NCBI GenBank assembly: GCA_002067895.1
Contig: MVRE01000013.1
Span: 62,001-126,000, forward strand
DNA length: 64,000 bases
Source of the DNA: Methanoregula sp. PtaU1.Bin051
Lineage (GTDB): Archaea; Halobacteriota; Methanomicrobia; Methanomicrobiales; Methanospirillaceae
Direction: 5' to 3'
Below are positions 33,483 through 35,863 of the stretch, piece by piece. Positions within the stretch are counted from its first letter, which is position 1; each line of letters opens with the position of its first letter. The position numbers and the translations under genes are program-made. The notes beneath the pieces were generated by a model. That model ran no database searches. It worked only from the letters and a program-made list of their open reading frames with translations, and was not told the origin of the DNA.

Positions 33483-34952
33483 ATGCCTGATGCAGCGGCG
33501 TTTGTGCCCCCGCAGGAGAGCGGGTACGTCATCTTCGGCTGCGGGACGACCGGCTACAACATCATCCTCGAACTTACTAAAGAGAACGAGCACGTTGTCG
33601 TAATAGACAAGGACGAGCAGCGTGTCCGGAGTCTCCGCGACCAGAAGTACGACGCGTATGTCCGGGACGTGGCGGCACCCGACATGCTCGTCGGCCTGCC
33701 CGAGCCACGGATTGCGTTTGTCATGACCGGCGATGCCGATGCCAACCTCGCGGCAGTAATCGCGATCCGGAAGCGCTACCCGTCCGCTCACGTGATCGCA
33801 CGGGCAGTCGACCCCGTAAGCGGGGGGAAGCTGACCGCTGCCGGTGCCGAGCTCGCCCTGTACCCGCAGGAGCTTGTCGCGAAGGTTGCGATCCACCAGG
33901 TGAAGAAGCAGACCGCGAGCCGGCTCTCCCAGAAGATCTTCTCCCTGCTTGCCGGATGGGAGGGGACGCTCGGCATCATCACCCACAAGAACCCGGACCC
34001 GGATGCGATCGCGAGCGCCATGGCGCTTTCCGCTATAGCAAAACATGCAAGCCCCAGAAACCTTACAACAAGGATCTTCTACGAGGGAAACATCGGGCAC
34101 CAGGAGAACCGGACTTTTGTCAACCTGCTCGATATCAAGATGGAGCACTTAACCCCTGACGCAATTGCCAAGTGCAACTACCTTGCGCTCGTGGATACGC
34201 CGGCACCCGGCGCCAACAACGATGTCCCGCAGGGGACGAAGATCGCAATCATCATCGACCACCATAAGGACACCAAGCACCCTATACCCGCCGGGACGTT
34301 TACCGATATCCGACCGGGTCTCGGGGCGACGGCAAGCATCCTCACCCAGTACCTGCAGGAGCTCGACATCCCTGTCGATAAAAGAGTGGCAACCGCGCTC
34401 CTCTACGGTATCAGGGCGGACACGAAGGATTTCCGGCGCAACACGACACCGCAGGACCTCAACTACGCGGGATTCTTACTCCCGCTCACCGATTCCGACC
34501 TCCTTGACAAGATCATGTCACCATCGCTCTCGCAGGAGACGATCGATGTGCTCGGGAAGGCAATCCAGAACCGGGAAATCGTCAGCGGCTACCTGTTCTC
34601 CAACGTCGGGTACGTGATGAACCGCGATGCGCTCCCGCAGGCGGCGGACCTCTTAATCACGCTCGAAGGGGTGAACACGGCGCTCGTGTACGGGATTACC
34701 GACACCGCGATTGTCGTATCGGCACGGAACCGGGACATCCGGCTCCATATCGGAAACGCGCTCGCCGAAGCCTTCGGGGACATCGGGGACGCCGGCGGTC
34801 ATCCCAACATGGCGGCGGCGACCCTCCCGCTTCACTATTTCGCACGGGTCGAGCAGAAAGCCGAGCTCCTCAATATCACGATCGCCCCAATCCTCCAGAA
34901 ATTCAGGAACCTCGTCGGGATCGAGAACGAGGGAAAGAAGAACGGCCCGTGA
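33483..34952 (+). CDS. TrkA-N / DHH-DHHA1 phosphoesterase fusion
   Basis: The protein has 489 residues. Residues about 13-130 form a Rossmann TrkA-N/RCK-type nucleotide-binding domain (VIFGCGTTGYNI). Residues about 155-480 are a DHH phosphoesterase with HKNPDPDAIASA, LVDTP and IIDHHKD (Asp/His metal ligands), and a DHHA1 part with GDIGDAGGHPNMAA. Such archaeal proteins are thought to hydrolyse small (oligo)nucleotides such as pApA or cyclic dinucleotide products, perhaps controlled by NAD or other ligands on the TrkA-N domain. A TATA-like cttaatatg lies about 27 bases before the ATG. Confidence 0.85.
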   Translation: MPDAAAFVPPQESGYVIFGCGTTGYNIILELTKENEHVVVIDKDEQRVRSLRDQKYDAYVRDVAAPDMLVGLPEPRIAFVMTGDADANLAAVIAIRKRYPSAHVIARAVDPVSGGKLTAAGAELALYPQELVAKVAIHQVKKQTASRLSQKIFSLLAGWEGTLGIITHKNPDPDAIASAMALSAIAKHASPRNLTTRIFYEGNIGHQENRTFVNLLDIKMEHLTPDAIAKCNYLALVDTPAPGANNDVPQGTKIAIIIDHHKDTKHPIPAGTFTDIRPGLGATASILTQYLQELDIPVDKRVATALLYGIRADTKDFRRNTTPQDLNYAGFLLPLTDSDLLDKIMSPSLSQETIDVLGKAIQNREIVSGYLFSNVGYVMNRDALPQAADLLITLEGVNTALVYGITDTAIVVSARNRDIRLHIGNALAEAFGDIGDAGGHPNMAAATLPLHYFARVEQKAELLNITIAPILQKFRNLVGIENEGKKNGP

Positions 34953-34982
34953 CTGCCTGCATTGGGATCCGGCCAGGGCATT

Positions 34983-34989
34983 AGGAGGT
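34983..34989 (+). promoter_or_regulatory. Strong ribosome-binding site of the first mini-ORF
   Basis: AGGAGGT lies 5 bases before ATG 34995. This is a near-perfect match to the archaeal 16S tail, so the first repeat unit is very likely translated. Confidence 0.6.
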
Positions 34990-34994
34990 AACCG

Positions 34995-35045
34995 ATGAAA
35001 TACTCTGGTTCGAAACGTCTTCAGGTGTTGAGGATCGAGAAGTGA
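34995..35045 (+). CDS. 16-residue leader mini-ORF (repeat unit 1)
   Basis: The sequence reads MKYSGSKRLQVLRIEK and a TGA stop. It has the strong AGGAGGT site. The next three 62-bp units encode the same peptide type: MNFAGSKRCEALRIEK, then variants with Thr or Ala at residue 14 and Arg at residue 9. It may be a leader peptide or a by-product of repeat expansion. Confidence 0.4.
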   Translation: MKYSGSKRLQVLRIEK

Positions 35046-35242
35046 AGAGTGAAACGATGAACTTTGCTGGTTCGAAACGCTGTGAAGCGTTGAGGATCGA
35101 GAAGTGAAGAGTGAAACGATGAACTTTGCTGGTTCGAAACGCTGTGAAGCGTTGAGGACCGAGAAGTGAAGAGTGAAACGATGAACTTTGCTGGTTCGAA
35201 ACGCCGTGAAGCGTTGAGGGCCGAGAAGTGAAGAGTGAAACG
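34995..35242 (+). repeat. Four tandem 62-bp repeats ending at the mptE start codon
   Basis: Units start at 34995, 35057, 35119 and 35181, each with ATG as its first bases. The mptE ATG at 35243 is where a fifth unit would start, and its first dozen bases (ATGAACTTCGCTG) match the unit. Unit 1 is the most diverged. Each unit encodes a 16-residue ORF with TGA, then an 11-base spacer. Inside each is AACGCT-GTGA-AGCGTT, a hairpin with a GNRA-type loop; unit 1 has AACGTC-TTCA-GGTGTT, which still pairs with compensating changes. Confidence 0.85.
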
Positions 35243-35863
35243 ATGAACTTCGCTGACTGGGAACCATATTATAACGAGATTCTCGCCTATTTCGGATTCG
35301 ACCGGAAAGCCGATGAGGAAGCAGCCCGGCTCCTCGCCGACCTCCTTCCGTATGATAACCTCCTCTCTCTCGTTTCTGTTACTGAAGGCAACGAGGTCAC
35401 GGTCTGCGGGAATGCGCCATGCCTGAAAGACGATCTTGAAAAGATCCACGGGATTGTCTTTGCGGCCGATGCCGCTGCCGAGGTGCTGGACGATCGCGGG
35501 ATCCGTCCGGATGCGATCTTCACGGACCTTGACGGGGCGACTGACCGGTTCGTTGAGATGAACCGCGAAGGGACGATCATCGTCATCCATGCCCATGGCG
35601 ACAATATCCCGCTCCTCAAACACTGGGTTCCGCGGTTCACCGGCAAGGTGGTCGGCACGACGCAGGCTGCCCCACTTCCCCATATCCACAACTTCGGCGG
35701 GTTCACGGACGGCGACCGTGCGGTCTTTGCCGCACATGAGCTGGGAGCGGAAAAGATCCATCTTGCCGGGTTCGATCTCGATGATCCTGATGTTGACCCG
35801 GTAAAGAGGGGCAAGCTCTTCTGGGCGAGAAAGCTCCTCGCTCTCATCGGTCACGACATATGA
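35243..35863 (+). CDS. mptE: 6-hydroxymethyl-7,8-dihydropterin pyrophosphokinase, archaeal type
   Basis: The protein has 206 residues. It belongs to the MptE/DUF115 family that makes 6-hydroxymethyldihydropterin diphosphate for methanopterin (or folate). Motifs seen: IVFAADAAAEVL, FTDLDGATDRF, VIHAHGDN and HLAGFDLDD. ATG 35243 is chosen over the GTG at 35228 because it starts the conserved N-terminus (MNFADWEPYYNEI) and matches the repeat-unit start. It follows the mini-ORF array, which may couple or control its translation. Its stop overlaps the next gene by 4 bases. The other methanopterin gene of the window is at 1922-3454. Confidence 0.9.
   Translation: MNFADWEPYYNEILAYFGFDRKADEEAARLLADLLPYDNLLSLVSVTEGNEVTVCGNAPCLKDDLEKIHGIVFAADAAAEVLDDRGIRPDAIFTDLDGATDRFVEMNREGTIIVIHAHGDNIPLLKHWVPRFTGKVVGTTQAAPLPHIHNFGGFTDGDRAVFAAHELGAEKIHLAGFDLDDPDVDPVKRGKLFWARKLLALIGHDI

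Follow-up and report, generated by a model that had tools for sequence, protein, structure and literature searches.

Directly upstream of mptE, the window analysed here (the whole stretch of 64 kb) carries a series of short repeated units, each with a start codon and a hairpin of its own, and the question is what such a series does between two co-directed genes. Four 62-bp units lie head to tail on the forward strand at 34995-35242, between the DHH gene and mptE, whose ATG follows at 35243. TRF reports the array with a period of 62, 4.0 copies, 95% matches and a score of 430, against scores of 56 and 60 for the two other tandem arrays in the window. Every unit runs from an ATG through 16 codons to a TGA, with the next ATG 11 nt after the stop, and the ATG past unit 4 is that of mptE. 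Sequence and TRF thus confirm the arrangement given in a preliminary description, four ORF-bearing units with the mptE start as the fifth, and the ribosome site that it assigned to the first unit is present as AGGAGGT five bases before the unit 1 ATG. The features of the locus are as follows.

33483..34952, + strand, gene for a TrkA_N - DHH - DHHA1 protein of 489 aa, ending in ..CCGTGA; Pfam PF02254, PF01368 and PF02272 above cut-off
34949..34984, + strand, candidate link ORF (VTACIGIRPGH, then stop); GTG start with a 4-nt overlap (GTGA) with the DHH stop; ends 10 nt before the unit 1 ATG
34983..34989, + strand, AGGAGGT, Shine-Dalgarno-like by sequence, 5 nt before the unit 1 ATG
34995..35056, + strand, unit 1 (diverged); ORF 34995-35045, MKYSGSKRLQVLRIEK, then stop
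34999..35043, + strand, hairpin region of unit 1, 15/17 consensus pairs
35057..35118, + strand, unit 2; ORF 35057-35107, MNFAGSKRCEALRIEK, then stop, or 21 codons from GTG 35042
35061..35105, + strand, hairpin of unit 2, 17/17 consensus pairs
35119..35180, + strand, unit 3; ORF 35119-35169, MNFAGSKRCEALRTEK, then stop, or from GTG 35104
35123..35167, + strand, hairpin of unit 3, 17/17 consensus pairs
35181..35242, + strand, unit 4; ORF 35181-35231, MNFAGSKRREALRAEK, then stop, or from GTG 35166
35185..35229, + strand, hairpin of unit 4, 16/17 consensus pairs
35228, + strand, alternative in-frame GTG start of mptE, with a 4-nt overlap with the unit 4 stop
35243..35863, + strand, mptE, 206 aa; Pfam PF01973 MptE-like, 96.2 bits against a cut-off of 34.6; start conserved in relatives

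We take the AGGAGGT to be a Shine-Dalgarno-like element complementary to archaeal 16S. The link ORF is not significant by itself. Units 2-4 differ from one another at 1-3 of 62 positions and unit 1 differs from them at 10-11 of 62, while the unit head recurs at the mptE start (ATGAACTTCGCTG versus ATGAACTTTGCTG). The copy number comes from a draft assembly of 23 contigs, in which the units are nonetheless told apart by distinguishing bases. In its own genome the unit is found at this locus only: a DNA search returned the array and one match at E 0.87, and a scan for GTGAAGAGTGAAACG that allowed at most two mismatches gave the four units and two 2-mismatch sites, the reversed-pattern control giving 3. 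The array does not have the form of a CRISPR array, consisting of whole 62-bp units head to tail with no variable spacers and scoring 15.7 bits with CRISPR-DR33 against a cut-off of 39.

The setting of the array becomes clear from the same junction in relatives. Of 108 family genomes, 95 yielded an mptE gene, and in 93 of these the spacing between DHH stop and mptE start was measured; G082 and G009 (partial mptE) were left out, and G085 was measured separately. The distance is -11 nt in 60 genomes, -4 in 3, -14 in 1, -1 in 1, +1 in 4, 29-91 in 20 and above 100 in 4, the last group comprising the window genome (G000, 290 nt), G085 (225), G074 (193) and G075 (139). In the family, then, DHH and mptE usually overlap directly, and the two longest spacers belong to the arrays. 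Spacers of at least 25 nt occur in genera g1 and g5 only, with widely varying lengths and sequences.

The second array was found with a covariance model, R1, built from the four window units and the spacer of G006, with G085 not used, and run against 108 genomes. In G085, which belongs to another genus, R1 matched three consecutive 62-bp units directly before mptE, with E values per genome of 5.7e-6, 1.3e-5 and 2.9e-5. Their 21-codon ORFs (MIFTGVKHHPKLRIGKRGVQR, MNFEYVKLPLELSIEKRGAKR and MNFEYMKLPLELNMEKGGAER) each end in a stop that overlaps the next ATG by 4 nt (ATGA), the last unit overlaps the mptE start by 4 nt, and a link ORF with its start in the DHH end joins the first unit, again by a 4-nt overlap. 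G083 has a single 62-bp unit of 21 codons with an ATGA overlap into mptE, and G006, of the same genus as the window, has one 67-bp unit whose ORF overlaps mptE by 14 nt. The eight 62-nt units of three genomes show no indel at a between-genome identity of 29-42/62 (47-68%), lower than that within genomes (52/62 for units 1 and 2, 44/62 for G085a and G085b). The unit was thus found in 4 of the 93 family genomes with a junction read, and an array in two of them.

Plain DNA similarity proved inadequate for detecting arrays, as it found only the window genome among both 108 and 232 genomes; the G085 array surfaced with the covariance model only. A second model, R2, was retrained on all nine units and run against 232 genomes of the order. 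Its strong matches, which are so by construction because of that training set, lie only in the window genome, G085, G083 and G006 (best of each E 5.6e-9 or better), three further genomes give matches at E 0.006-0.08, and full units occur across the 232 genomes solely before mptE. Aligned singly, unit 1 matches the G083 and G006 spacers with p 0.0005 and 0.0015, which is moderately significant when about 22 spacers are allowed for. Recurrence of the heptamer-like tail GTGAAGAGTGAAACG in a repeat-rich locus of G107 was taken as chance. That locus (L114, G107:C1, about 28.9 kb) has a cluster of several tandem arrays at 490-2446, among them heptamer-like (GTGAAAC)n and repeats of the AGTGATCAGTCATC type; the ORF that they surround is, as a guess, one for a phage terminase small subunit.

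The unit length itself bears on translation, 62 being 3 x 21 - 1, the length needed for a 4-nt overlap of each stop with the next start. Overlapping stop and start codons, a feature of termination-reinitiation coupling, are present as ATGA in G085 and G083 and as GTGA in the window. In the window, an earlier TGA at codon 17 ends each ATG ORF, and a G precedes this TGA in all units, so that the resulting GTGA, which the preliminary description had overlooked, places a GTG at the -4 spacing, in frame with the next ATG. These GTGs lie 15 nt before each next ATG, open ORFs of 21 codons and are preceded at 7-8 nt by AGGA or GAGG within the 3' arm of the hairpin. The window overlap nevertheless requires merely a G ahead of TGA, and the ATG starts lie 11 nt past the stops. 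One window link, from the link ORF to unit 1, stands at +10 rather than overlapping, and the strong SD in front of unit 1 may let ribosomes initiate afresh there, outside the coupled chain. Against shuffled sequences the window chain is no better than chance (p 0.109 for ATG, 0.244 for ATG+GTG) and the G085 chain is marginal (0.059). Across the clade, 14 of 20 spacers carry an unbroken relay with no gap above 13 nt versus 10.3 expected (2/200 shuffles as many), a modest excess in a count that left out three near-duplicates, kept the last 14 nt and was made when the G085 array was not yet known. A larger excess of bridge ORFs, 17 of 22 spacers versus 8.3 expected (0/300 shuffles; one near-duplicate left out), was not retained, having shrunk to this 14/20 versus 10.3.

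The reading preferred here, with a probability of roughly 0.5, is that the array is a translationally coupled mini-ORF leader that would relay ribosomes from the DHH gene to mptE and was amplified separately in two lineages. Ribosomes leaving the DHH gene would pass from unit to unit by termination-reinitiation and so arrive at mptE. Each ORF encloses its hairpin, which begins four bases downstream of the A of the ATG and has to be opened by any ribosome that translates the unit. Where the mini-ORFs stay untranslated, the hairpins would remain closed and impede fresh initiation, and mptE would thereby be tied to upstream translation even though the ancestral direct overlap is gone. In H. volcanii (PMC10666635), re-initiation is tight at overlaps, reaches 40-60% at +13/14 nt and falls to near zero at 22-23 nt. 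By these distances the G085 chain would be tight, and the window chain either tight through its GTGs or leaky through its ATGs; four window steps at 40-60% each would, by our own arithmetic, leave about 3-13% of the ribosomes.

A different use of the same ORFs, in which the repeats encode a functional small peptide and the copies raise its dose, is very improbable. A residue pattern is recognisable by eye, M-x-F/Y-x-x-x-K in 9/9 aligned units and L-x-x-x-K at positions 12-16 in 8/9, and this speaks for a peptide. Set against it, pN is about equal to pS between species: Nei-Gojobori pN/pS values are 0.35/0.29 for unit 1 and G085a, 0.34/0.40 for unit 2 and G085b and 0.36/0.56 for unit 1 and G083, with window-G085 pairs overall at pN 0.34-0.36 versus pS 0.29-0.40. 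Within arrays there is likewise no synonymous excess, 5 of 6 differences between G085b and G085c and 3 of 3 between units 2 and 4 being non-synonymous, and the window ORF is shortened to 16 codons if the ATG is used. These substitution patterns give no clear sign of purifying selection on the peptide, and retention of the ORF in units 2-4 is not evidence of selection, as these are near-identical recent copies.

The consensus of the hairpin comprises 17 pairs in three stacked arms; besides the 15, 17, 17 and 16 pairs of units 1-4, the G085 units keep 14 each, G006 keeps 15 and G083 keeps 10. Units 2-4 fold better than most of 500 shuffles (fractions as low 0.008, 0.002 and 0.03). Unit 1 does not, at 0.308, and its minimum-energy fold differs from the 17-pair structure. 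Over nine units the covariation score is 0.359 versus 0.232 in shuffles (0/500 as high), with 12 cells of two-sided change versus 6.0 expected (2/500 shuffles) and 7 pairs with such change versus 4.6 expected (47/500), and the score falls to at most 0.147 when the partner register is slid by 1-3 columns. RNAalifold, predicting on its own, gives 15 pairs, 7 with two-sided changes. The signal depends on G085: without it, covariation is ordinary (138/500 and 80/500 shuffles as high). Against random placement of substitutions, the 14 of 17 pairs kept from units 1 and 2 to G085b/c exceed the 7.9-9.0 expected (p 0.0004-0.0024), all G085 comparisons give p 0.0004-0.019, and unit 2 to G006 keeps 15 pairs versus 10.3 expected (p 0.0044); G083, at 10/17 pairs and p 0.20-0.23, shows no excess. 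The hairpin thus appears to have undergone two-sided compensatory changes between species, for which the support is good and not final, since the shuffles ignore relatedness and the structure was derived from unit 2. Mutagenic template switching in imperfect palindromes is also able to make paired changes.

An RNA element could have come first, the hairpin serving the intercistronic RNA as a site for binding, processing or stability while the mini-ORFs are incidental, a reading that we consider quite unlikely. The covariation over nine units agrees with it. The window array also folds strongly, at z -5.18, and the G006 spacer reaches z -2.77 (p 0.007), where 22 spacers (the window's excluded, G006 included) average -0.36; general structuring of spacers in the clade, weak by that mean, was rejected as an account. 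Hairpins of like internal signature in gene-end DNA of G093 and G085 also fit, and count for less because over 232 genomes they fail to reach significance (E 0.006 per genome) and have no Rfam match. Rfam 15 gives no family match over 34700-35500 of the window either, the best lying far below gathering scores. An RNA element first does not account for the fact that G085 and G083 also keep the ATG, an open frame and the 4-nt overlap into mptE.

The gene-end hairpins were observed in gene-end or intergenic DNA at about 876-918 and 1008-1050 of locus L204 (G093:C6), about 1013-1052 of L203 (G085:C107) and about 688-713 of L205. They read TCGA-N5-GAAA-N12-TTGAG-N3-4-GAGAAG or nearly so, the loop signature of the mptE leader units, and several are followed by a second long hairpin. 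By eye, L204 holds at about 850-1160 two hairpins beside repeated copies of an apparent gene 3' end, which looks like another hairpin-linked duplication at a gene boundary. Rfam found only a tRNA in loci L202-L205.

The history of the unit bears on the main rival. In a tree of DHH and mptE together, the window genome groups with G007 and G006 with G004, and G083 and G085 fall in g5; as the sister genomes G007 and G004 are without the unit, loss or transfer must be assumed. The later units resemble the mptE head of their own genome, with 9/10 matches over nt 4-13 for units 2-4 in the window and for G085b/c in G085, against 7 and 5 matches for the respective first units. We infer from these patterns that there was a single ancestral unit, that it was lost repeatedly (or transferred), and that two lineages amplified it separately. 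The ancestral 62-bp unit, probably like that of G083, would have multiplied by slippage with the mptE start, separately in the window and G085 lineages, its frame-keeping length allowing the chain to stay intact as copies accumulated. A transfer of mptE out of the sister genus was considered and not adopted: mptE of G000 and G007 groups with g5 and their DHH with g1, and one clade is still accepted by the AU test (p 0.32). Recombination at the DHH-mptE junction (33483-35863 of the window) is possible and not significant. Derivation of the unit tail from the 3' end of DHH was also rejected, the shared 10-mer GGATCGAGAA giving p 0.049 but profiles against 17 tight junctions p 0.06-0.46. For the unit head, derivation from the start of mptE gives p 0.012 for G006 and 0.14 for unit 1.

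Neutral slippage is the main, serious rival to the coupled leader, and we rate it as possible, if less probable. It holds that a short sequence near the mptE start was duplicated by replication slippage and tolerated since mptE keeps its start codon and some ribosome site, the ORFs and hairpins being inert. The near-identity of units 2-4 (1-3 differences) is as expected from it, later units with the mptE head of their own genome, as seen in both genomes, are what slippage involving unit 1 and the mptE start would produce, and both the presence of the element in few genomes and a peptide without constraint agree. What it explains poorly is that two genera hold arrays of 62-nt units at the same place, with length fixed at such between-genome divergence, that the stop/start overlaps are retained through two different codon arrangements, and that the hairpin carries two-sided changes.

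The coupled leader also differs in emphasis from what the preliminary description proposed. Of the RNA role suggested there, the hairpin is borne out by two-sided base-pair changes with the G085 and G006 units, and re-initiation is plausible from the stop/start overlaps. Control of methanopterin synthesis and the counting of units are both unsupported here: nothing ties unit number to expression, and most relatives are without the unit, an absence that the description itself had named as one element of evidence against its reading. A GCN4-like regulatory attenuator that senses a signal (methanopterin or amino acid supply) and adjusts mptE by counting re-initiations is likewise hardly probable. 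Four ORFs in series before one gene suit it, and each +11 step would shed ribosomes according to the H. volcanii values of PMC10666635; no sensor element, regulatory codon run or Rfam match was seen at the array, and an array occurs in just two of the 93 junctions read. A narrower version of the coupled leader, put forward tentatively and judged rather unlikely as a whole, is that frame-keeping, self-coupled mini-cistrons both arose and multiplied in parallel in two archaeal genera, at a single gene for an essential cofactor, and that unit number tunes the coupling of mptE to upstream translation, at one re-initiation step per unit. The natural series of 0, 1, 3 and 4 units before the same gene would make the cost of serial re-initiation measurable in archaea, and it also allows a test of the idea that repeats spread safely while keeping stop/start overlaps.

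A search of the open-access literature found no report of this array, and its nearest counterparts are partial ones. The yeast GCN4 leader has four short uORFs in series that are read by re-initiation. The present array resembles it in the series of ORFs; GCN4 uses eukaryotic scanning, its uORFs are not tandem copies, and nothing at the present array points to regulation. Closer in mechanism is archaeal termination-reinitiation, which in Huber et al. 2019 and 2023 involves the same 4-nt ATGA/GTGA overlaps of co-directed ORFs and a strong distance dependence; the partners described there are ordinary genes, whereas here a chain of repeated mini-ORFs stands between them. Salmonella mgtQ (Choi et al. 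2021, PMC8092293) is likewise a very short intergenic operon ORF; when translated, it opens a stem-loop and promotes the gene downstream. It differs in being a single, bacterial, unrepeated ORF that relies on ribosome-destabilising codons.

The best reading thus shifts from methanopterin regulation to a coupled, MIRU-like mini-ORF leader with a conserved hairpin. MIRUs are mycobacterial interspersed repetitive units, reportedly described by Supply et al. in 1997. According to a 2025 review (PMC12548453), they are mycobacterial repeats, apparently mobile, that insert themselves at the start codons of genes, with the repeat ORF coupled at -4 nt, and are thought to disturb expression of the adjacent gene little. 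The likeness is a short repeat at a gene start whose ORF has a 4-nt overlap with the adjacent start or stop, and the present array too sits between co-directed genes (DHH and mptE) at a start codon. It differs in being archaeal, in its 62-bp length, in the strong hairpin inside the ORF and in its single locus at mptE; not being interspersed, it is likened to MIRUs by layout, not by sequence homology, and is not filed among them. If the relay is true, the element, with its covarying hairpin and its two independent arrays, would be the counterpart of MIRUs in archaea.
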